41,607 bases of DNA from a virus. The translations under genes were made by a program, and so were the position numbers. Each line of letters begins with the position of its first letter. The first letter of the stretch is position 1. Positions 10,849-41,593 of the stretch are shown here, in pieces. Below the pieces are notes generated by a model. The model ran no database searches, had not been told where the DNA came from, and saw only the letters and a program-made list of their open reading frames with translations. The stretch covers positions 1 to 41,607 of IMG/VR virus record IMGVR_UViG_3300031839_000944; one strand, given 5' to 3'.

Positions 10849-10882
10849 GGTGTTTCACCTCATCAGCAGTGGTCATCCAAGA

Positions 10883-10937
10883 CCGCCGGGAAGGGGTGGA
10901 TGAGTCCCCTTGTCGGTCGCGCGACCTATCCCGGCGG
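10883..10937 (-). other. Three-stem structured leader between tail tube and chaperone genes
   Basis: An outer perfect 8-bp stem (CCGCCGGG at 10883-10890 with CCCGGCGG at 10930-10937) encloses two hairpins: AAGGGG/CCCCTT (10891-10896 and 10906-10911) and GGTC/GACC around GCGC (10915-10926). It fills most of the 100-base gap between the tail tube and G genes. There is no T-tract, so a simple terminator is unlikely. It may be an mRNA processing or stability element. Confidence 0.5.
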
Positions 10938-27110: not shown

Positions 27111-27736
27111 CGGATGGCCTCACGTTGGGGGATGGATGCGAGCGCATCGCGCAGGCGGCGTGCGTCGCTGATCTGGACCACGGATCCCGACCGACTGCCG
27201 TTCGATCGCACCTGCTCGCAAACGGAGCGGTCGCCGATCATCGCCATGCTGGCCGAGTCGAACTGGCCATTGACCACGGCGGGGTAGGCGGCCGGCGGAT
27301 TCCGGCGTAGCCGGTCGTAGTGGGCGACGAACTCCTTGCCGCGCCAGGCCATGTCGGAGCTGTCAGCCTCGGCGAGCCGGGTCCAGCCGCCCATAGCCTC
27401 GATGCAGGCGTGGATGATCGGGTCATCGAACACCATTGGCCGGTACTGGCCGACCCGGATGATCGCGTTGTGTACCTTGGCCCAGGCGCCCTCAGCGGCA
27501 TCACTGTTGGTGCCCTGCAGCGCCCGGATCACGTCGGCAGGCTTTGGCGGGTGCTGCCCGACAGCCGGATCTCCAACATGCGCGACAAGCGCCCTCTCAA
27601 CCATCAACAGGTCGAAGCGCTCCAGGGCCTTGAACCAGATCCCGCGTGCAGCGGCCGTGAGCGGCTTCTGCTGGGCGTAGAGGTCCATCACCGCATCCAG
27701 GGCCGAGACGAAGCGGTCAAAGTCGTTTGCCATCAT
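27107..27736 (-). CDS. DUF6475-like replication accessory protein
   Basis: The 209-residue protein begins ANDFDRFVSALDAVMDLYAQ and has GIWFKALERFDLLMVERALVAHV and PADVIRAL segments, typical of a phage family (DUF6475) found right after DUF1376 initiators. It probably takes the place of lambda P in replication, as a helicase loader or cofactor. It overlaps the initiator gene by ATGA. I place the start at the first of two adjacent ATG codons. No Walker motif is visible. Confidence 0.7.
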   Translation of the reverse strand: MMANDFDRFVSALDAVMDLYAQQKPLTAAARGIWFKALERFDLLMVERALVAHVGDPAVGQHPPKPADVIRALQGTNSDAAEGAWAKVHNAIIRVGQYRPMVFDDPIIHACIEAMGGWTRLAEADSSDMAWRGKEFVAHYDRLRRNPPAAYPAVVNGQFDSASMAMIGDRSVCEQVRSNGSRSGSVVQISDARRLRDALASIPQREAIR

Positions 27737-28632
27737 GGCGCGAAACCCAAGAGGCGCTTGGCCTCCGCGTTGGCCGCAGCGTTTGCCTCGCTGTTCCCAG
27801 GACGCAGCTGCCGGACGTTGCCACCGCCTCGCCAGTCCCAATCGGCGTTGAACCCTATCCAGCCCCTCTCGGCGCAGATCCGCACGGCCTCAGCGGGCGT
27901 TATTGCGGCCCGTGCCGCCTCACGCTCCATCCCGGCCCAAGCGGTCTGTGTCAGCGGGGCTCGCTTGCGCTCCCTTACCGCAAGCCAGTCCCTCGCGGTT
28001 GTCTCGGGCACGCCAATGTCAGCGAGAAATGCGGCTCCGAGCGCTGCGCGCGCGCGCTTGCGCGCCTTACCCCCGTCAGGGGGTATGTTGGGTATGGTGT
28101 CTGGTGTCTGGTGTCTGGTAGCCGTAACATCACGCGTGACAGGTGTGGATGTCACCGCAACGTCACGCGTGACGTCACGCGTGACAGGTGTGACTTTTGC
28201 CTGTTCAGCGCGTGACAGCAGTGTGACGAGTTCACCCGTTGGCGTGTCGTAGTCCGGCACGATTCCGTGGCTTCGCAGCGAATCAAACAGTTCGCTACGG
28301 CGCTCACGCGTCCTGCGCTGTCGCTCGGCGGCATTGGCGCGCTTGGCTTCGCGCTCCGGCTCGGTCTGCTGATACTTTTCGATCTCCGCGTCGCAACGGC
28401 GCTGCCGGTAGCTGTCGCCATCAAGCTGGAAGAACTCTTTCAGGACCAAATCCACCGCGCTGCGGTCAGCTTTGGTCACGGCCCTGGCGATGCGATAAAC
28501 CATCTCCTTCGGGATCGGCTGACGGGTCGCGTAGTAGCGGTCGAGAAGCAGGTCGTAAACTCCCACCTCCAATGCTGTGAGGTGAGCAGTGTCACGAGTG
28601 AAGTCTCCGATGTGACGCTCGTAATAGTTCAC
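27733..28632 (-). CDS. DUF1376 replication initiator-like protein
   Basis: The 299-residue protein starts with the DUF1376/YdaU domain (MNYYERHIGDFTRDTAHLTA, then VGVYDLLLDRYYATRQPIP), a winged-helix-like fold used in phage replication initiation. A basic helical stretch follows. Next is a low-complexity linker in which the motif VTRDV recurs, and a C-terminal domain with AALGAAFLADIGVPETTARD and WIGFNADWDWRGG. The linker DNA contains perfect palindromic repeats, as in lambda O where the origin lies inside the gene. The start is GTG, overlapping the upstream stop (GTGA). It likely opens the origin and recruits host helicase with the DUF6475 partner. Confidence 0.8.
   Translation of the reverse strand: MNYYERHIGDFTRDTAHLTALEVGVYDLLLDRYYATRQPIPKEMVYRIARAVTKADRSAVDLVLKEFFQLDGDSYRQRRCDAEIEKYQQTEPEREAKRANAAERQRRTRERRSELFDSLRSHGIVPDYDTPTGELVTLLSRAEQAKVTPVTRDVTRDVAVTSTPVTRDVTATRHQTPDTIPNIPPDGGKARKRARAALGAAFLADIGVPETTARDWLAVRERKRAPLTQTAWAGMEREAARAAITPAEAVRICAERGWIGFNADWDWRGGGNVRQLRPGNSEANAAANAEAKRLLGFAP
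28081..28193. repeat. Palindromic repeats inside the initiator gene, candidate origin
   Basis: Three perfect copies of TCACGCGTGA lie at 28130-28139, 28163-28172 and 28175-28184. The first and third extend rightward as ACAGGTGTG... Upstream are three tandem GGTGTCT units (28096-28116) and two GGGTATG units (28081-28096). Such clustering inside an initiator gene recalls the iterons of lambda ori. Confidence 0.7.
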
Positions 28633-28937: not shown

Positions 28938-29014
28938 TCGCCGCGAATCATCACGGCCGCGACCGTCCACTCGCCCGCGCGCTGGGCGTACTTGCTGATC
29001 CGTTTCCACCTCAT
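28760..29014 (-). CDS. Hypothetical protein, tail overlaps next gene
   Basis: The 84-residue product begins MRWKRISKYAQRAGEWTVAA and keeps a protein-like pattern to about residue 57 (FPTAEEARAHAST). The final 27 residues are serine/proline/arginine rich and look like out-of-frame sequence. The ATG overlaps the CII-like stop (ATGA). The first part reads as a small beta domain with several tryptophans. It may end early in nature or continue into the -1 frame. Confidence 0.55.
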   Translation of the reverse strand: MRWKRISKYAQRAGEWTVAAVMIRGEWTFEAWKGRELQAERMAVFPTAEEARAHASTLASQLASAPSSPTGRSGRPSTQPARAA

Positions 29015-29328
29015 CCATCCTCGTCCTCCCAAAGGAGCTTTGGTTGTTGCGTCAGCGCCCGGCCGGCGATCTGGGTCAGCGACAGGAACACGTCCTCGCC
29101 AACGCATCGGGCAGAGCGGTCCACGACCTTGAGATCCAAGGCCGCGATCAGTAGTTGGATCTGCGGCAGCCGGAGGCCGGACTTGCCGTTGACGAACCGG
29201 GAGAACTCGCCGGCGTCGATGCCGCACTGAGCGGCCAGTTGTGCGTGCTTGGCTGCGTCCAGTCGCCTCAACAGCAGCCAAGGGGCTCCAATGGCGCTTG
29301 ACGGGGCGGCATCCGAAGATGGACTCAT
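29011..29328 (-). CDS. CII-like transcription activator
   Basis: The 105-residue protein resembles lambda CII: LRRLDAAKHAQLAAQCGIDA, EFSRFVNGKSGLRLPQIQLL and ALDLKVVD, which form the helix-turn-helix and the following helices. CII activates the establishment of repressor and integrase. It lies second in the leftward operon, after the Cro-like gene and a terminator, as in lambda. I did not find a clear TTGC-N6-TTGC binding site, so its target differs or is elsewhere. Confidence 0.75.
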   Translation of the reverse strand: MSPSSDAAPSSAIGAPWLLLRRLDAAKHAQLAAQCGIDAGEFSRFVNGKSGLRLPQIQLLIAALDLKVVDRSARCVGEDVFLSLTQIAGRALTQQPKLLWEDEDG

Positions 29329-29351: not shown

Positions 29352-29379
29352 AAAAAGCCCCGCCGGCGATCCGGCGGGG
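29352..29379 (-). terminator. Intrinsic terminator between cro and cII (tR1-like)
   Basis: On the minus strand a perfect CCCCGCCGG/CCGGCGGGG stem with a four-base loop is followed by CTTTTTG. It matches the place of lambda tR1 and would limit CII and replication expression. Confidence 0.88.
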
Positions 29380-29443: not shown

Positions 29444-29680
29444 TTAGGCCGCCCGCTTCTCAGGACTGGGCCCGAAGATGTCGGGGCGGAGGTCGTGCTT
29501 TGTCACGCTGCCGCCAGTTGCCCGCTCTACGTCAGCACACCTTTCAGCCGGGAAAGGTCCGCGATTGCGGTTAATCCATGCCCAGACCTGCCCCTGACGA
29601 ACACCCAGCAGGCGCGCCATCTCTGTTTGCCCGCCGACGAGCTGAACTGCCTGAGAGAACACCGACTTAGATTGATCCAT
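29444..29680 (-). CDS. Cro/YdaS-like repressor
   Basis: The 78-residue protein has a helix-turn-helix typical of YdaS/Cro antitoxin-like regulators: FSQAVQLVGGQTEMARLLGV, RQGQVWAWINRN. It is the first gene of the leftward lytic operon and is divergent from the larger repressor at 29764. It should bind the same operators in a different order and commit the phage to lysis. The ATG lies only about seven bases past the -10 element of its promoter, so its mRNA may have almost no leader. Confidence 0.82.
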   Translation of the reverse strand: MDQSKSVFSQAVQLVGGQTEMARLLGVRQGQVWAWINRNRGPFPAERCADVERATGGSVTKHDLRPDIFGPSPEKRAA

Positions 29681-29686
29681 GCCCCC

Positions 29687-29715
29687 ATTGGAACAACAAA
29701 TGTTGTTCCTGTCAA
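29687..29715 (-). promoter_or_regulatory. Lytic promoter PR
   Basis: On the minus strand consensus TTGACA (29715-29710), a 17-base spacer and TCCAAT (29692-29687) precede the Cro-like gene. Operator OR1 fills the spacer and OR2 overlaps the -35 box, so repressor binding would block it. Confidence 0.7.
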
Positions 29716-29753
29716 CATGGTTTGTTGTTTGCGCGCGAATAACAGTCGTTGTG
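29692..29753. promoter_or_regulatory. Right operator cluster, three sites
   Basis: Sites fit AACAAC-N4-GTTGTT: 29692-29707 is perfect; 29714-29729 has AACATG and GTTGTT; 29738-29753 has AATAAC and GTTGTG. Centres are 22 and 24 bases apart, about two helical turns, suiting cooperative dimers. Confidence 0.75.
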
Positions 29754-29763
29754 AGATAGCGCC

Positions 29764-30264
29764 ATGAACTTCGGAGCCCGTCTAAGAAAGGAAAGAACGC
29801 GGGCGGGCATGACGCAACGCCAACTGGCCGAAAAGGCCGGCATCAAAATCGATGGGCAACAGATCGTGCAGGCGATTGAGGCTCGGAATAGCCGCAGCAG
29901 CGTCCACGCCCCAGCTCTAGCAGAGGCCCTTGGTGTCTCGCTTGAATATTTGCTGACAGGAGAGCAAGACGGAGAGAGATCGAGCAGTTATTTCGGCCCG
30001 CCCGATTCCCAGTGGATCCCGGAAAATGATTTCGCGAGGCCGAGGATCACCCAGCCGGAAGAAAGGCATGAATACTTGCGCCAGGCTGAGGCGTACTTCG
30101 CAAACCACCCAGTGGTGACTGGGACATCAGATGCTCACAAGAGGGCTCTTGTGGCGATGCTGGCGGCACTCCCGGAAATGGACGTCATGTTCGCTGAGTC
30201 TCTCGTGAGCCTGATAAAGGCATACACATTTCGAACGTCTGGCAGGACAATTTTGCCGTTCTAG
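29764..30264 (+). CDS. Prophage repressor, CI-like, without protease domain
   Basis: The 166-residue protein has an N-terminal XRE helix-turn-helix (residues about 4-62: LRKERTRAGMTQRQLAEKAG, IVQAIEARNS, APALAEALGVSLEYLLTG). A helical C-terminal part (HKRALVAMLAALPEMDVMFA) probably serves dimerisation. It lacks the S24 peptidase domain with Ser-Lys pair found in lambda CI, so it cannot self-cleave through RecA in the usual way. It lies divergent from the Cro-like gene across the three-site operator cluster. It should hold both early promoters silent in the lysogen. The ribosome site is weak. Confidence 0.82.
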   Translation: MNFGARLRKERTRAGMTQRQLAEKAGIKIDGQQIVQAIEARNSRSSVHAPALAEALGVSLEYLLTGEQDGERSSSYFGPPDSQWIPENDFARPRITQPEERHEYLRQAEAYFANHPVVTGTSDAHKRALVAMLAALPEMDVMFAESLVSLIKAYTFRTSGRTILPF

Positions 30265-30902
30265 TGGCGTTTTCGAGGTCCTGATCTCATCTGTTCCATC
30301 CTGTCCATGAACCAAGCCGCATGGCCGTAGTTGTCGGCCGAAATGTTGTCAAGTGCCATCCTGATGGCCCTTGTCTCGTCATCCGGCCTTTTGGCCTTGC
30401 GGTACAGGATGGCCAGGCGCCGATAGGTGTAGGGCGTCTCCACGCGAAGCGCAGCCAATGATTCGTATTGCGCGATTGCTTCGTCAATCCGCCCCTGTTT
30501 CTCCAGCCACTTGCCCCTTTCGTTGCCCTCGGCAGCAAGGGCAAACCCAGCCTGCAATGCTCGGAACTCCATCAGGCCAAGGGCCGACTCGAAGGATTCG
30601 GCGCCGTCTAACTCAATGTATGGGTGCTTTTCCGAGAGCTTCTTGAGCTGCTCCCACCTCGATCTTGCGAACTTGATCCTGTCTGCCTTGGTGCCGGGAT
30701 CTTGGGAATCCTCGGCGATCGCTATCGACTCGCGGATCTGTCTTATCAGCTGGTCCGCGAGCCTGCGGTTGGATTGGCGCAGTTCGTCATGTCCTCCGTT
30801 GCGATCGGGCGCTCTAGTCGCAGATCTTCTAGCCCTCCTGAGCTTGGTCACTTCGTAGATCAAGAAGCCCAGGATCAACGCGGCCACGGCTAAGAACTCC
30901 AC
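30261..30902 (-). CDS. Membrane-anchored TPR-like protein in the immunity region
   Basis: The 213-residue protein starts with a membrane helix (residues 2-17, EFLAVAALILGFLIYE), then a basic segment and a mainly helical cytoplasmic part. RIDEAIAQYESLAALRVETP and YTYRRLAILYRKAKRPDDET fit tetratricopeptide repeats. The start is GTG with a strong GGAGGAGG site. It is convergent with the repressor, the stops overlapping by four bases, and begins about 60 bases from the left operators. Genes in this slot (such as lambda rexAB) act in the lysogen, often in exclusion of other phages. Function here is not known. Confidence 0.75.
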   Translation of the reverse strand: MEFLAVAALILGFLIYEVTKLRRARRSATRAPDRNGGHDELRQSNRRLADQLIRQIRESIAIAEDSQDPGTKADRIKFARSRWEQLKKLSEKHPYIELDGAESFESALGLMEFRALQAGFALAAEGNERGKWLEKQGRIDEAIAQYESLAALRVETPYTYRRLAILYRKAKRPDDETRAIRMALDNISADNYGHAAWFMDRMEQMRSGPRKRH

Positions 30903-30959
30903 TTAGGTTCCTCCTCCAAAACCTCGACGGAGGATGCCCGACCACGGCTCGCGCATCCA

Positions 30960-31032
30960 GACAACAAACGTCGTCTCGATCTTCTCGCGCAAACAACATT
31001 CGTTGTTGACAACAGAAACAACGTGTGTTGTT
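30960..31032. promoter_or_regulatory. Left operator cluster, three sites
   Basis: Sites of the same motif lie at 30960-30975 (GACAAC-N4-GTCGTC, weaker), 30992-31007 (perfect) and 31017-31032 (perfect). Centres are 32 and 25 bases apart. The two perfect sites overlap the -35 box and spacer of the rightward promoter. Confidence 0.8.
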
Positions 31033-31034
31033 AT
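31006..31034 (+). promoter_or_regulatory. Rightward early promoter PL
   Basis: Consensus TTGACA (31006-31011), a 17-base spacer and TGTTAT (31029-31034) lie 44 bases before the first gene of the recombination operon. Both perfect left operators overlap it, so it should be silent in the lysogen. Confidence 0.78.
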
Positions 31035-32029: not shown

Positions 32030-32202
32030 CCGAGATCCAGGCCACTTTCAAGACGTCCTGCCCGCAGATCGCCTCGGCGCTGCAGCGGCAGGCCTCCTAC
32101 CTGGCCGCCGAATACGGCGTGCCCGTCACCGTCACCAAGCGTCGGCCCACCTGGGCGGCGCTGGTGGCCTTCTTTCGCACCAAGCTGGGGAACTTCCAAT
32201 GA
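32026..32202 (+). CDS. Small hypothetical protein upstream of Bet
   Basis: A 58-residue protein (TEIQATFKTSCPQIASALQR...) starts at GTG 32026 with GTGA overlap to the preceding gene and ends in an ATGA overlap with the Bet gene. It has a helix followed by a basic strand (VPVTVTKRRPTW). A coupled accessory of the recombinase is possible. Family not recognised. Confidence 0.6.
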   Translation: MTEIQATFKTSCPQIASALQRQASYLAAEYGVPVTVTKRRPTWAALVAFFRTKLGNFQ

Positions 32203-33209
32203 CAGCAGTTGCAACGATTCACGCCAGCAAGTCGGCCAGCCTCGTCGGTCGCTTCGCCGAGCGGTTCGGCGTGCAGGCCGACAAGATGCTTGCCACCCTC
32301 AAGCAGACCTGTTTCCGCATCCCGCCCGGCAAGAACGGGGAGCAGCGCGAGGCCACGAACGAGGAAATGATGGCCCTCCTGGTGGTCGCCGATCAATACG
32401 GCCTCAATCCGTTCACCAAGGAAATCTACGCCTTCCCGGACAGCCAGCGCGGCGGCATCGTGCCGGTGGTGTCGGTGGACGGCTGGACCCGGATCATCAA
32501 CCAGCACCCGGCCATGAACGGCATCGAGTTCCGCTACTCGGACTCCACCGCCAAGATCGACGACCACCACAAGCCGTGCCCGGATTGGTGCGAGGCGGTC
32601 ATCTACCGCAAGGACCGGCACCAGCCCATCGTCATCCGGGAATACCTGGATGAAGTCTACCGGCCGCCGTTCGAGGGGACTGGCCGCAATGGCGCCTACG
32701 TCAAGGCCGGCCCGTGGCAGTCGCATACCAAGCGGTTCCTGCGTCACAAGACGCTGATTCAGGCCGCGCGTGTCGCGTTCGGCTTCGCTGGCATCTACGA
32801 CGAGGACGAAGCGGAGCGTATTCAAGAGTCCCGCATCATCGAGCACGGCCATCCCCAGCAGCCGGCCATTGATGGCGACCTGATGCCAAAAGCGGTCACG
32901 CAGGATGCGAAGCCGATCACCATACCAGCGCAGGTGGTCGAGGCGGCGCGTGAAACGGTCGAGGCCGAGCAGCGCGCCGAGTTCGCCGACAACGTGGCCG
33001 AGGCCAAGCGGCAGGCGCGGGTGGCGGCCGAAGAAACAGCGCCCGCGCCGTCAATCAACGCCAACATGGCGGCGGTGCTGCGAACGAAGATGGGCCAGAG
33101 CGGAGTCAAGGAGGCGGCGCTTTGCCAGCAATTTGGCATTGATTCTTTGGAGCTGTTGCCGGCCTCCAAGATCAACATTGCGCTCAAGCACGCATCGGGC
33201 CAGGCATGA
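32199..33209 (+). CDS. bet: Phage recombination protein Bet (single-strand annealing)
   Basis: The 336-residue protein carries the Bet/RecT pattern in its first 200 residues: QTCFRIPPG, MMALLVVADQYGLNPFTKEI, 'GGIVPVVSVDGWTRIINQH', and WQSHTKRFLRHKTLIQAARV with AFGFAGIYDEDEAERI. Such proteins anneal complementary strands. The C-terminal 110 residues, beyond lambda Bet (261), form a charged linker and a small helical end (FGIDSLELLPASKINIALKH) that may bind a partner such as SSB. It precedes an exonuclease gene, forming a Red-like pair. Confidence 0.92.
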   Translation: MTAVATIHASKSASLVGRFAERFGVQADKMLATLKQTCFRIPPGKNGEQREATNEEMMALLVVADQYGLNPFTKEIYAFPDSQRGGIVPVVSVDGWTRIINQHPAMNGIEFRYSDSTAKIDDHHKPCPDWCEAVIYRKDRHQPIVIREYLDEVYRPPFEGTGRNGAYVKAGPWQSHTKRFLRHKTLIQAARVAFGFAGIYDEDEAERIQESRIIEHGHPQQPAIDGDLMPKAVTQDAKPITIPAQVVEAARETVEAEQRAEFADNVAEAKRQARVAAEETAPAPSINANMAAVLRTKMGQSGVKEAALCQQFGIDSLELLPASKINIALKHASGQA

Positions 33210-33796
33210 ATCACATCATCGCCTTTGATGAGCCGACCCACACCTACACGGTGGAAGGTAAGGCCATGCCGAGCGTGACGACGATCTTGGGTGTGTTCAA
33301 TCGCGGCTTGGACCGCGTGCCAACGGCCATCCTGGATCAGAAGGCCCGCATCGGGACCGCCGTGCATCGTGCGTGCGAACTGGATGATGCGGGTCAACTC
33401 GATGAAGCGTCGGTTCACCCGGTGGTGGCGCCGTACCTGCAGCAGTGGCGCCTGTTCAGGCAGCGCGTTCGGTTCGACGTGATTTCCAACGAGCAGCGCG
33501 TGTTCAACCCGCTGCACAACTACGTCGGCACCGCTGACCGGATCATTTTGTTCGAGTCTGACCGTTCGGTGCTGGACATCAAGACCGGCATCGAATCGCC
33601 GTGGCACGCGCTCCAGACCGCCGGATACGCAGCCGCAGCCGAGCAGGGCGAGGGCGTGAAGATTCCTCGCCGGTTCTCGCTCCACCTCACGCCCGAAAGC
33701 TACAAGTTGATCGAGCACAAGAAACCTACCGACCGCCCGACGTTCATGGCGGCGGTGTCGCTTTACCACTTCATGAAGGCAAACGGAGAAATCTGA
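33206..33796 (+). CDS. RecB-like PD-(D/E)XK exonuclease
   Basis: The 196-residue protein has the RecB-nuclease core: GTAVHRACELDD (H54), 'YVGTADRII' (D111), VLDIKTG (D124, K126) and HALQTAGYAAA (Q137, Y141). These residues bind metal and cut DNA. It overlaps the Bet gene by ATGA and should produce the single-strand tails that Bet anneals, like lambda Exo. It is shorter than many Cas4/AddB-type nucleases and lacks the iron-sulfur cysteines. Confidence 0.88.
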   Translation: MNHIIAFDEPTHTYTVEGKAMPSVTTILGVFNRGLDRVPTAILDQKARIGTAVHRACELDDAGQLDEASVHPVVAPYLQQWRLFRQRVRFDVISNEQRVFNPLHNYVGTADRIILFESDRSVLDIKTGIESPWHALQTAGYAAAAEQGEGVKIPRRFSLHLTPESYKLIEHKKPTDRPTFMAAVSLYHFMKANGEI

Positions 33797-35108: not shown

Positions 35109-35308
35109 TGAAGCCCAGCCCATACAGCGATGAAGTGGTGAGGCGTGCGCGCCTCATCTACGCCCGGGGGTGGTCCCAGAAAGAAACCTGGGAACACCTC
35201 GCGGAGGAAGGCCACGACATCCCATACGACACCCTCTGCAAATGGCTGACCTGGCAGACCAGGGCGGCGGCAGGCGGTGAATTGACGATCAGGAAAATCG
35301 AAGCATGA
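35108..35308 (+). CDS. Small helix-turn-helix protein
   Basis: The 66-residue protein has a helix-turn-helix: SDEVVRRARLIYARGWSQKE, then WEHLAEEGHDIPYDTLCKWL. This resembles phage and transposase-type DNA-binding domains. Its ATG overlaps the ssb stop (TGATG), and its stop overlaps the helicase-methyltransferase start. It could be a targeting subunit of that enzyme or a regulator. Confidence 0.7.
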   Translation: MKPSPYSDEVVRRARLIYARGWSQKETWEHLAEEGHDIPYDTLCKWLTWQTRAAAGGELTIRKIEA

Positions 35309-37809
35309 GCGACCCATACAAACGCTTTCTGGAAGGCAAGGTCCGCATGGCGGAATCAAGCGGATTCGACGTACCGCTTGAGGCATTTCATCCCACTATG
35401 AAGCCGCATCAGAAAGCGGTGGCGCAGTGGGCTGTTCGAGGTGGCCGGCGCGGCATCTTCGCCCGCTTCGGCCTCGGCAAGTCGATCATGCAGCTCGAAG
35501 TCGGCCGCGTGATTCTGGAGCATGCCGGTGGCCATGGCCTGATCACCTGCCCGCTGGGGGTTCGCCAAGAGTTCCGCGAAGATGCGATCAAAGTCCTCGG
35601 TTGGGAGCGCGCGCCGCGGTTCATCCGCCAGACCTCCGAGATCGATGAACCGGGCCTGTATCTGACCAACTACGAGTCGGTACGCGAAGGCAAGATCGAC
35701 CCGTCTGCGTTCACGATGGCCAGCCTGGACGAGGCAGCAGTCCTGCGCAGCTACGGCAGCAAGACCTATCAGGAGTTCATGCCCCTGTTTGATCCGGTGC
35801 CGTACCGGTTTGTTGCCACCGCCACCCCGGATCCAAACCGCTACAAAGAGCTGATTCACTACGCCGGCTTTCTCGGGATCATGGACACCGGACAGGCCCT
35901 TACCCGGTGGTTCCAGCGCGACAGCACCCAGGCCAACAACCTGACGCTGTACCCGCACAAGGAGCGGGAGTTCTGGCTTTGGGTTCATTCATGGGCCGTC
36001 TTTCTGCAGCGCCCCTCAGATCTCGGTTTCAGCGACGAGGGCTACGACCTGCCCGAGGTTCGTGTCCACTACCACGAGGTGAAGGTGGACCTGACATCGG
36101 ATCAGGTGGACCGCGACGGCCAGAAAAAGCTGTTCCGTGATGCCGCGCTAGGACTGCAGGATGCCGCTCGCGAGAAGCGCGACAGCATGCCGGCGCGAAT
36201 CGCCAAGATGGTGGACATCCTATCAGCCGAGCCGGAACGGCACGCCATTCTGTGGCATGACCTCGAAGCCGAGCGCCACGCAATCCGGGAGGCGGTGCCG
36301 GAGGCCGTCGAAGTGTTCGGCAGCCTGGATCTCGAAACCCGCGAGCAGCGGATTATTGATTTCAGCAACGGCCGCATCCAGTACCTCGCGACCAAGCCTG
36401 AGCTGAGCGGCAGCGGCTGCAACTTCCAGCGCCACTGCTCCATGGCGGTGTTCGTCGGAATTGGCTACCAGTTCCACGACTTCATCCAGGCCATCCACCG
36501 CATCGTCCGCTTCCTGCAAAAGGAGGTGTGCGACATCCACATCATCTACGCCGAGACCGAGCGCGAGGTCCTGACCTCGCTACGCGACAAGTGGTCCCGG
36601 CACGAAGAAAAGGTCGAACGCATGAGCGAGATTATCCGTGAGCATGGGTTGAACAGCTTGTCGATGTCCCAGGTCCTGACCCGATCAATCGGGGTGGATC
36701 GCATCGAGGCAAGCGGTGACGGCTGGCTCGTCGCCAACAATGATTGCGTAGCCGAAACCCGGGGCATGGCCGACAACAGCGTCGACCAGATCATCACCTC
36801 TATCCCGTTCTCAAACCACTACGAATACACGCCCAGCTACAACGACTTTGGGCACACCGAAAGCAACGAACACTTCTGGCAACAGATGGACTTCCTGACG
36901 CCAGAGCTGTTGCGGATACTGAAGCCTGGTCGCATTTACTGCTGCCACGTCAAAGACCGGATCAACTTCGGCAACGTCACCGGCGCCGGCGTGCCAACCG
37001 TCTCGCCATTCCACGCCGAGGCCCTGTTCCACGGTCGGCAGCATGGGTTCGACTATCTCGGGATGATCACCGTCGTCACCGACGTGGTGAGGGAGAACAA
37101 TCAGACCTACCGGCTGGGATGGTCTGAGCAGTGCAAGGACGCCACGAAGATGGGCGTCGGCTCGCCCGAATACATCCTCCTGTTCCACAAGCCCCAGTCC
37201 GATCGCTCGAAGGGCTACGCCGACACGCCGGTCACCAAGTCGAAGGCCGACTACACCCGCGCCCGCTGGCAGGTCGACGCGCATGCCTTCTGGCGCAGCT
37301 CCGGGAACCGTCTGTTGACGCCCGAAGAGCTGGAGGGGCTGGGGCCAGATAAGCTGGCCAAGGTCTACACCGACTACAGCCTCAAGACGATCTACGACTA
37401 CGAGACGCACGTCCGTATCGGCGAGGCCCTGGACGCCCGCGGTGCCTTGCCGTCGACCTTCATGTCGCTCGCCCCCGGAAGCAACGACCCCAGCGTCTGG
37501 CATGACGTCAACCGCATGCGAACACTGAACGGCGACCAGACCCGAAAGGGCCTTCAGAATCACGTCTGCCCCCTGCAGTTCGACATCGTGGACCGGCTGA
37601 TTGTCCGGTTCAGCAATCCTGGCGAGATCATCTTCGATCCCTTCGGCGGTCTCATGACCGTGCCATACCGAGCCATCGGCCTGGGCCGAAAGGGAAGGGC
37701 AAGCGAACTGAACCACGGCTACTTCCTCGACGGTGTGAAGTACCTCGAAGCCAAGTCGCGGGAGATGTCCATGCCGTCTCTTTTTGACACCCTGGAGGAT
37801 GCAGCGTGA
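35305..37809 (+). CDS. SF2 helicase-DNA methyltransferase fusion
   Basis: This 834-residue protein joins two enzymes. Residues about 30-430 form an SF2/SNF2-like helicase: Walker A ARFGLGKS (53-60), LDEAA box (141-145), ATATP motif III (171-175) and QAIHRIVR motif VI (395-402). Residues about 465-820 form a beta-class amino-methyltransferase: catalytic SIPF motif IV (499-502, in place of the usual S/D-P-P-Y/F), then the SAM-binding DPFGG motif I (778-782). The helicase may move along DNA while the methylase marks adenine or N4-cytosine. No nuclease domain is present, so it is not a restriction enzyme. It is in the repressed PL operon beside ssb. It may protect phage DNA. Confidence 0.85.
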   Translation: MSDPYKRFLEGKVRMAESSGFDVPLEAFHPTMKPHQKAVAQWAVRGGRRGIFARFGLGKSIMQLEVGRVILEHAGGHGLITCPLGVRQEFREDAIKVLGWERAPRFIRQTSEIDEPGLYLTNYESVREGKIDPSAFTMASLDEAAVLRSYGSKTYQEFMPLFDPVPYRFVATATPDPNRYKELIHYAGFLGIMDTGQALTRWFQRDSTQANNLTLYPHKEREFWLWVHSWAVFLQRPSDLGFSDEGYDLPEVRVHYHEVKVDLTSDQVDRDGQKKLFRDAALGLQDAAREKRDSMPARIAKMVDILSAEPERHAILWHDLEAERHAIREAVPEAVEVFGSLDLETREQRIIDFSNGRIQYLATKPELSGSGCNFQRHCSMAVFVGIGYQFHDFIQAIHRIVRFLQKEVCDIHIIYAETEREVLTSLRDKWSRHEEKVERMSEIIREHGLNSLSMSQVLTRSIGVDRIEASGDGWLVANNDCVAETRGMADNSVDQIITSIPFSNHYEYTPSYNDFGHTESNEHFWQQMDFLTPELLRILKPGRIYCCHVKDRINFGNVTGAGVPTVSPFHAEALFHGRQHGFDYLGMITVVTDVVRENNQTYRLGWSEQCKDATKMGVGSPEYILLFHKPQSDRSKGYADTPVTKSKADYTRARWQVDAHAFWRSSGNRLLTPEELEGLGPDKLAKVYTDYSLKTIYDYETHVRIGEALDARGALPSTFMSLAPGSNDPSVWHDVNRMRTLNGDQTRKGLQNHVCPLQFDIVDRLIVRFSNPGEIIFDPFGGLMTVPYRAIGLGRKGRASELNHGYFLDGVKYLEAKSREMSMPSLFDTLEDAA

Positions 37810-40195: not shown

Positions 40196-40399
40196 ATGAG
40201 TGAGCTTTGGACGGCCGCCGAGATAGCGGCCTACTGCAAACTGGAATCAGAGGATGTCGTCCGGCGGGCGATGGTCTGCAGGCCGGGATTCCCGCGCCCC
40301 GTCGCGTTCAGTGGGCGAGGAACAGGCAAGAAGCCCCGCCGCCGCTGGTACAGCGACGAGGTTCAGAAATGGATCCGCGAGAACTGCCGCGAGGCTTAG
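40196..40399 (+). CDS. AlpA-like excisionase candidate
   Basis: The 67-residue protein has a winged-helix/AlpA pattern: LWTAAEIAAYCKLESEDVVR, then FPRPVAFSGRGTGKKPRRRW and YSDEVQKWIREN. Such proteins bend DNA at attachment sites or regulate integrase. It lies next to the integrase, converging with it so that the stops overlap. Its start is only 11 bases from that of the opposing protease gene. Excisionase is the best guess. Confidence 0.7.
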   Translation: MSELWTAAEIAAYCKLESEDVVRRAMVCRPGFPRPVAFSGRGTGKKPRRRWYSDEVQKWIRENCREA

Positions 40400-41364
40400 G
40401 CCAGCTTGCCCGCCAGGCTGCGGCCGGTTTGGCGATAGTAGGTGTTGAGCAGAAGGTTCAGATCCCGGTGCCCGGTGACCTTGGCCAACTCAAGCGGCGA
40501 CAGCACCCTAGCCAGCCTGGTGCAGGCGGTGCCTCGGGTGTCGTGAAACGTGATGCCAAGCCCCAGCGGTTTGACCAGCTTGCGGAACGTGGCCTCGCCG
40601 GAGGCCTGGTCGATGGGGAAGGGGCGACCATCCTGCGGCAGCCAGGACAGGATCTGCAGCGCCCTGGACGATAGCGGCACCTCGCGGTCGTGGCCGTTCT
40701 TGGTCCGGTCCAGGTACAGCCAGCGCTCATCCAGGTGGATCCGATCCCATGTCAGCCCAACGATCTCACCCTGGCGCATGGCGGTCTCCAGCGCCAGAAG
40801 GAAAGCGCAGGCCATGAAGTGCGCGATGCTTGCCGGGGGATCGCCCTCGCGATAGGTGAGGGCCTCCACGACCATCCGCACCTCATCGTCAGAAATCAGC
40901 CGGTTGCGGGCCTTCGGGCTGCTGGGGCGCCGCACGGCCGCTGTCGGCGCGCCGGGAATGAACCGCCAGATCCGGGCCGCATGCTGGAACACGGCCGAAA
41001 GGATGTTGAACTCTCGCAGCGCGGTCCCGTCCGATACCTGCTCGCGGCGCTCGCGCATCCAGTCCTCGATGTGCCCAGGCCGGACGTCGCCCACTGGAAG
41101 GCCCATCCAGTCATTGAGCATCAAGGCCCGGATGCGGAAGGTCTCATGCCTGGCCGAGCGCTTGCCCGGGGTGACCTCGCGCAGGTAGCGGTCGAACACT
41201 TGGCGGCAGGTCAGCGATGATCCGATCCCGCCGGCCAGCTCCTCTTTCGTCTGCCGTGCCCAATCCTCAGCCGCCTTCTTGGTGCGGAAAGAAGCCCCGC
41301 GCCGCTGGCCGTGGTGATAGACCTCGGCGTGCCACTTGTCGCCCCGGCGCCTGATGCTCGCCAT
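40396..41364 (-). CDS. int: Tyrosine integrase
   Basis: The 322-residue protein has an N-terminal arm-binding part (IRRRGDKWHAEVYHHGQRRG), a core-binding domain (residues about 50-140) and a catalytic domain. The catalytic residues are R197 (AMRQGE), K222 (RTKNGHD), H274-x-x-R277 (FHDTRG), H299 (GHRDLN) and tyrosine 309 or 310 (NTYY). It inserts and excises the prophage at the tRNA-Thr gene about 150 bases away. It reads leftward, away from the tRNA. Confidence 0.95.
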   Translation of the reverse strand: MASIRRRGDKWHAEVYHHGQRRGASFRTKKAAEDWARQTKEELAGGIGSSLTCRQVFDRYLREVTPGKRSARHETFRIRALMLNDWMGLPVGDVRPGHIEDWMRERREQVSDGTALREFNILSAVFQHAARIWRFIPGAPTAAVRRPSSPKARNRLISDDEVRMVVEALTYREGDPPASIAHFMACAFLLALETAMRQGEIVGLTWDRIHLDERWLYLDRTKNGHDREVPLSSRALQILSWLPQDGRPFPIDQASGEATFRKLVKPLGLGITFHDTRGTACTRLARVLSPLELAKVTGHRDLNLLLNTYYRQTGRSLAGKLA

Positions 41365-41365
41365 C

Positions 41366-41417
41366 TGCCGTAATCCCTGCCGTAGTTATGCCGTAGAGAT
41401 TACGCCCATCTGCCGAA
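41366..41417. repeat. Phased TGCCGTA repeats upstream of int
   Basis: TGCCGTA occurs at 41366-41372, 41378-41384 and 41389-41395, and TGCCGAA at 41411-41417. Steps are 12, 11 and 22 bases, close to one helical turn. They may be integrase arm sites or regulator sites. Confidence 0.6.
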
Positions 41418-41446
41418 GAAGCGCCACAAATAGCCGCAGCAGGAAC

Positions 41447-41474
41447 GAAAAAAGGCCCGTAGAAACGGGCCTTT
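41447..41474 (-). terminator. Intrinsic terminator downstream of tRNA-Thr
   Basis: On the minus strand AAAGGCCCGT/ACGGGCCTTT with a four-base loop is followed by a T-run (TTTTTTCG). It ends tRNA transcription before int. Confidence 0.85.
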
Positions 41475-41517
41475 GGTAGATTCATCCGCGATTGGCGAGG
41501 ACGAGCCACAGATGGGG

Positions 41518-41593
<76 letters not shown>

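Follow-up and report, generated by a model that had tools for sequence, protein, structure and literature searches.

A probable 434-type immunity region with a YdaS-family Cro and predicted leaderless messages in a lambdoid prophage

In lambda, cI is translated from a leaderless message. Several other described switches resemble the one analyzed here, and for three of them, in CP-933P, Rac, and Qin, the architecture was shown experimentally (PMC8630535, PMC5700373, PMC10448788). The PaaR2/YdaS/YdaT switch of CP-933P shares with our locus a YdaS-type Cro, a CII analogue, a short repressor, and operators at both PR/PRM and PL, but differs in its operator repeats (GTTTAGTAA) and in the toxin-antitoxin genes downstream of the repressor; its CI analogue was reported to have no sequence similarity to lambda CI, and the repressor mRNA is leaderless (PMC8630535). 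DicA/DicC of Qin (PMC10448788) and RacR/YdaS of Rac (PMC5700373) likewise combine a short non-cleavable repressor, a Cro-like partner, and three operators, with three further operators at the PL analogue in the case of DicA (PMC10448788), but their genes and operator letters are unlike those of our locus, the Rac operators being GCCTAA/TTAGGC (PMC5700373). In the telomere phage PY54, leaderless cI and cro mRNAs were shown by RACE, a trait that we predict for our locus as well, but PY54 has a single Cro operator and a plasmid prophage (PMC4488713). Open-access papers mentioning both AACAAC and prophage operators were looked for, and to judge by their titles none describes the present operator. 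The locus adds one more example to a known kind of switch; its six operators are arranged as in phage 434, for which the annotated record OL657226 (locus L271) was used as the reference.

The window, that is, the whole stretch of DNA analyzed, is an IMG/VR virus record (IMGVR_UViG_3300031839_000944) of 41,607 bp with a G+C content of 64%. It is very likely a prophage, because it contains an integrase-like gene, recognized from sequence as tyrosine-recombinase-like (40396–41364), and beside it a tRNA-Thr (cgt) gene (41518–41593). The segment holding these two (40396–41593) is likely the attachment site; no direct att repeat of at least 12 bases was found between the first 600 and the last 300 bases of the window. 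A match to the int-alpA RNA family (RF02996, 39.6 bits, over its gathering score) lies at 10873–10936 on the minus strand.

The cro-like gene (29444–29680, minus strand, 78 amino acids) and the repressor gene (29764–30264, plus strand, 166 amino acids) diverge from a common intergenic region, where operators lie over PR and PRM; a second set lies over PL. Beyond cro come an intrinsic terminator at the tR1 position (29358–29379, minus strand, 9 GC pairs and a T run), a gene for a CII-like regulator (29011–29328, minus strand; phrog_725, 2.3e-10), and a gene of the cro operon for a DUF1376/primosomal, O-like replication protein (27733–28632, minus strand), while the PL operon carries a Bet/RecT-like annealing protein and an exonuclease (32199–33796, plus strand). 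This order of genes and operators is a complete lambdoid immunity layout, and it bears out the original prediction, in which three operators separate a Cro gene from a repressor gene transcribed the opposite way and three more precede a recombination operon. At the DNA level, the switch region had no similarity to the phage collection. Two other genes of this part of the window are recorded here. The PL operon includes, at 35305–37809 (plus strand), an 834-amino-acid protein that reads by eye as a SNF2-like helicase fused to a DNA methyltransferase. At 30261–30902 (minus strand), running leftward from the L cluster and convergent to the repressor gene, is a gene for 213 amino acids with a hydrophobic N-terminus, a weak TPR match, a strong Shine-Dalgarno sequence (GGAGGAGG), and a GTG start. 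It is possibly a lysogenic-conversion or exclusion gene, and the relatives L027, L060, L061, L064, and L070 have a secreted or lipoprotein-like gene at its place.

Six copies of AACAAC-N4-GTTGTT, three of them perfect, had been predicted in the two clusters, and direct reading and a pattern search agreed on all of them. Written as 14-mers (ACAAC-N4-GTTGT), they are O_R1 (ACAACAAATGTTGT, 29693–29706, no mismatch, in the PR spacer), O_R2 (ACATGGTTTGTTGT, 29715–29728, two mismatches, or one to ACAA-N6-TTGT, 22 bp from O_R1), O_R3 (ATAACAGTCGTTGT, 29739–29752, one mismatch to ACAA-N6-TTGT, 24 bp from O_R2, over the repressor promoter), the weak O_L3 (ACAACAAACGTCGT, 30961–30974, one mismatch, 32 bp from O_L2), O_L2 (ACAACATTCGTTGT, 30993–31006, no mismatch, overlapping the first base of the PL −35 box), and O_L1 (ACAACGTGTGTTGT, 31018–31031, no mismatch, 25 bp from O_L2, in the PL spacer and −10 box). 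The imperfect operators are thus O_R2, O_R3, and O_L3. O_R2 adjoins the PRM −35 box and overlaps that of PR by one base. Against the 16-mer, the sites starting at 29692, 29714, 29738, 30960, 30992, and 31017 have 0, 2, 2, 3, 0, and 0 mismatches.

It is scarcely credible that these sites are chance or low-complexity AAC/GTT repeats of a promoter region. The site at 30960, taken by itself as a 16-mer, is indeed at chance level (four 3-mismatch matches were seen and 4.46 expected). However, exactly five sites with at most two mismatches occur in the 41.6 kb, all of them within the two clusters, as had been predicted for a search of the full prophage, and no further such site exists elsewhere in the window; 100 dinucleotide shuffles gave a mean of 0.3 and a maximum of 2, and the site positions are conserved in many lineages. 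The shuffles and the conservation together rule out chance repeats, and the six sites are real. The only perfect matches to ACAA-N6-TTGT in the window are the three perfect copies, and the 30960 site, one mismatch from the 14-mer, lies where 434 predicts O_L3, since its 32 bp to the next site compare with 31 bp in 434.

The correspondence with 434 extends to the whole arrangement. The 434 operators are ACAA-N6-TTGT 14-mers in a three-plus-three layout, and the six sites of the window match them with 0, 1, 1 (R) and 1, 0, 0 (L) mismatches. The spacings are 22 and 24 bp (R) and 32 and 25 bp (L), against 22 and 23 bp and 31 and 23 bp in 434; the distance from O_R1 to O_L1 is 1325 bp against 1228 bp; and O_R2 and the PRM −35 box adjoin in both (29728/29729 in the window, 3437/3438 in 434). 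Lambda was therefore set aside as the nearest model: its half-site, its operator spacing, and the distance between its clusters agree less well with the window than do those of 434. The lambda-like layout of the original prediction thus held as a two-cluster, three-plus-three switch, but its nearest relative is 434, with the same half-site, the wider O_L3–O_L2 gap, and a similar cluster distance; and the motif, which had been called different, fits the 434 operator and is not a new class. Differences do exist: the fifth operator base is C in the window, and O_R1 lies in the spacer of PR, both unlike 434.

The repressor resembles that of 434 in its DNA-binding half. A domain search returned HTH_3 only; the best PDB matches of the DNA-binding domain were the 434 repressor and its derivatives (phmmer, 3e-6), and the two proteins, homologous in their N-domains, align so that the Gln-Gln pair opening helix 3 coincides. 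In contrast to the LexA-like C-terminus of the 434 repressor, the window's repressor has no Peptidase_S24 domain, and hence not the self-cleaving C-terminus of imm434, nor any recognizable oligomerization domain. In viral and genome contigs its matches were only partial, confined to the first 82 residues and for the most part to the helix-turn-helix, and the C-terminal 100 residues had no relative among the fetched loci. An AlphaFold model made without relatives (mean pLDDT 45) was discarded. RecA-driven self-cleavage is unlikely, and because the S24 domain is absent, induction is likely to be SOS-independent, for example by an antirepressor, as the likewise non-cleavable DicA is freed by an antirepressor (PMC10448788). 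On the operator fit, the spacings, and this 434-like DNA-binding domain, we regard it as highly probable that a temperate lambdoid prophage has its immunity region, the CI/Cro switch, here, with 434-type operators, ACAAC-N4-GTTGT.

The Cro-like protein is of another kind. Whereas 434 Cro is an HTH_3 protein, the window's Cro belongs, by sequence, to the YdaS/P22-Cro/Xfaso1 family (Pfam PF15943, 1.1e-25, 89.7 bits against a curated cut-off of 30; phrog_35, 6e-21). Its best solved relative is Xfaso1 Cro of Xylella (PDB 3bd1, E 8e-14), whose helix 3 reads RQSAISNW against RQGQVWAW in the window. The original claim that both regulators differ holds for Cro and for the repressor's lack of S24, but not for the repressor's N-domain, which is nearest that of 434 and carries the same Gln-Gln. 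A peptide-pattern search found no near relatives of this Cro, and an alignment of 19 Cros was dropped as a search query since it was too diverse.

Relatives of the switch were found by operator and by Cro. When viral contigs were scanned for ACAACNNNNGTTGT in pairs, 75 stretches were obtained, about 20 of them with two clusters; these loci were chosen by motif, so that their gene content is independent evidence while their motif content is not. In nearly all of the two-cluster stretches, one cluster lies between divergent genes for a YdaS-type Cro and an HTH repressor, and about 15 lineages combine the 434-type operator and the same kind of Cro with very different repressors. Their R clusters mostly hold three sites 20–25 bp apart and their L clusters usually two sites 21–26 bp apart, with 0.5 to 4.7 kb between clusters. 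O_L3 is exceptional, occurring in the window and in Vibrio phage 10N.286.54.F2_PE001 (L110); since two L sites suffice in most relatives, the third may serve no function in the window. The Vibrio phage, a phage record, has a YdaS Cro and a variant motif in both clusters, but differs in its ACA(A/C)C variants, its 24-bp spacing, and an SD-like leader on cro. In four of the loci (L027:8417, L032:5734, L064:4239, and L070:5064), the first PL gene, of 129–150 amino acids and with a LuxR/GerE-type HTH look, follows right after the L operators.

A further 160 loci, 80 of them non-redundant, were fetched by Cro similarity regardless of operators. At least five ACAAC/GTTGT half-sites before cro were present in 7 of the 11 with helix 3 xQxH[VI]WxW but in only 3 of the 69 others (Fisher p 1e-5), a helix class that was defined after inspection and a comparison from which relatedness was only roughly removed. 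Four loci (L115, L121, L139, and L158) have this helix yet fewer than five half-sites; in L115 (4830–5001), the helix KQGHVWSWL goes with ACAAG-N4-CTTGT, a one-base variant that is still ACAA-N6-TTGT. Other Cro helices go with other operators, such as the GCCTAA-like ones of the Rac-type controls L100 and L101. In an alignment of 18 repressors taken from the motif-selected loci, only Met1 and the first Gln of helix 3 are invariant, Gln-Gln is present in most, and Peptidase_S24 occurs in 7 and is absent from the rest, including the window's, so that one operator goes with differing repressor C-terminal domains.

The sequences directly show the sites, their spacing, the promoter geometry, the gene families, and conservation among relatives. 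From these we infer that both proteins bind, in which order they fill the sites, that the repressor activates its own promoter, that the transcripts lack leaders, and that the DNA loops over 1.3 kb. In a lysogen, repressor dimers would fill O_R1 and O_R2 and switch off PR, with cro, cII, and the replication genes, while repressor on O_L1 and O_L2 would switch off PL and the recombination operon. From O_R2, adjoining the weak PRM −35 box as in 434, the repressor could touch polymerase and would so raise its own expression. During the lytic cycle the same sites would be occupied by the YdaS-type Cro, which would shut off PRM and reverse the state. The same logic operates in CP-933P with YdaS and a short repressor (PMC8630535) and in Qin with DicA (PMC10448788).

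It is unlikely that one regulator alone uses the motif, Cro binding all six sites and the orphan repressor binding other, overlapping sequences. Such a split was suspected for PaaR2 and YdaS in CP-933P, where the footprints cover two overlapping repeat types (PMC8630535), and across the relatives the motif tracks the Cro helix while the repressors are very diverse. On the other hand, the repressor is nearest that of 434 and has the same Gln-Gln, the first of these residues is invariant in the 18 repressors, the O_R2–PRM geometry equals that of 434, and an unsystematic look at the intergenic region of the window turned up no second repeat type. We therefore prefer binding of the motif by both proteins.

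Whether repressor bound at the two clusters meets across 1.3 kb is a more balanced matter. It is quite conceivable, though we lean slightly away from it, that the L cluster is just a second repressed promoter whose operators are bound independently, without such contact. The repressor has no S24-type C-terminal domain, which in lambda carries repressor cooperativity; the family includes several short repressors, and the cluster separation among relatives varies widely. However, nearly all relatives keep the two-cluster layout, and short non-S24 repressors can oligomerize, PaaR2 being an octamer in solution (PMC8630535). Given that octamer, DNA looping between the clusters is possible.

The promoters had been predicted to overlap the operators and to face both ways, and TTGACA boxes at 29715–29710 (minus strand) and 31006–31011 (plus strand) agree with this. 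PR (29687–29715, minus strand) is TTGACA-N17-TCCAAT, followed by GGGGGC and the cro ATG; PRM (29729–29757, plus strand), a weak promoter, is TTGCGC-N17-TGAGAT, followed by AGCGCC and the repressor ATG; and PL (31006–31034, plus strand) is TTGACA-N17-TGTTAT. A simple promoter scanner reported none of the three, because their −10 boxes are imperfect, that of PR (TCCAAT) being poor. By the promoter boxes, the predicted +1 of both PR and PRM is the A of the respective start codon, which suggests that the cro and repressor mRNAs are both leaderless, beginning at the start codon. In 434, by contrast, the PR −10 box is followed by a 27-nt gap and a ribosome-binding site before cro, both lacking in the window.

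Many related phages seem to share this pattern. In 106 non-redundant promoters of YdaS-type cro genes, a set that takes in motif-selected and control loci, TTGAC stands 34–38 nt upstream of the cro ATG in 46 and at 39–49 nt in none, a second group lying at 50–79 nt. Of these 46, 3 have a Shine-Dalgarno match (4 nt or longer), against 34 of the 60 others, and a long divergent reading frame has an ATG 80–90 bp away from that of cro in 32 of the 46 and in 20 of the 60. In 12 switches that carry the motif and whose starts were curated, the first base after O_R2 and the repressor ATG are 35 nt apart in ten cases, and 36 and 38 nt apart in the other two. What is new here is the generalization, predicted from these two distances, of the leaderless switch. 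We think it fairly probable that compact switches of one class are widespread, with leaderless Cro and repressor mRNAs, start codons about 83–90 bp apart, and O_R2, where mapped, between two −35 boxes, each 34–38 nt from its ATG; in this class the 434-type operator would stay the same as one repressor C-terminal domain replaces another, some with S24 and some without it, so that the specificity of immunity would evolve independently of the mode of induction.

The switch is ordinary in kind, and it ties the textbook 434 operator to a large, mostly metagenomic set of phages with a YdaS-type Cro. The rule offered here from Cro helix to operator is testable and stands in the spirit of work reportedly done by Hall, Lefevre and Cordes in 2005, as cited in PMC4997575. 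If the picture is confirmed, phages with the same operators and different repressor tails may be co-immune although each responds to its own inducing signal, and translation without a leader would be widespread in the lysis-lysogeny decision rather than a curiosity of lambda cI and PY54.
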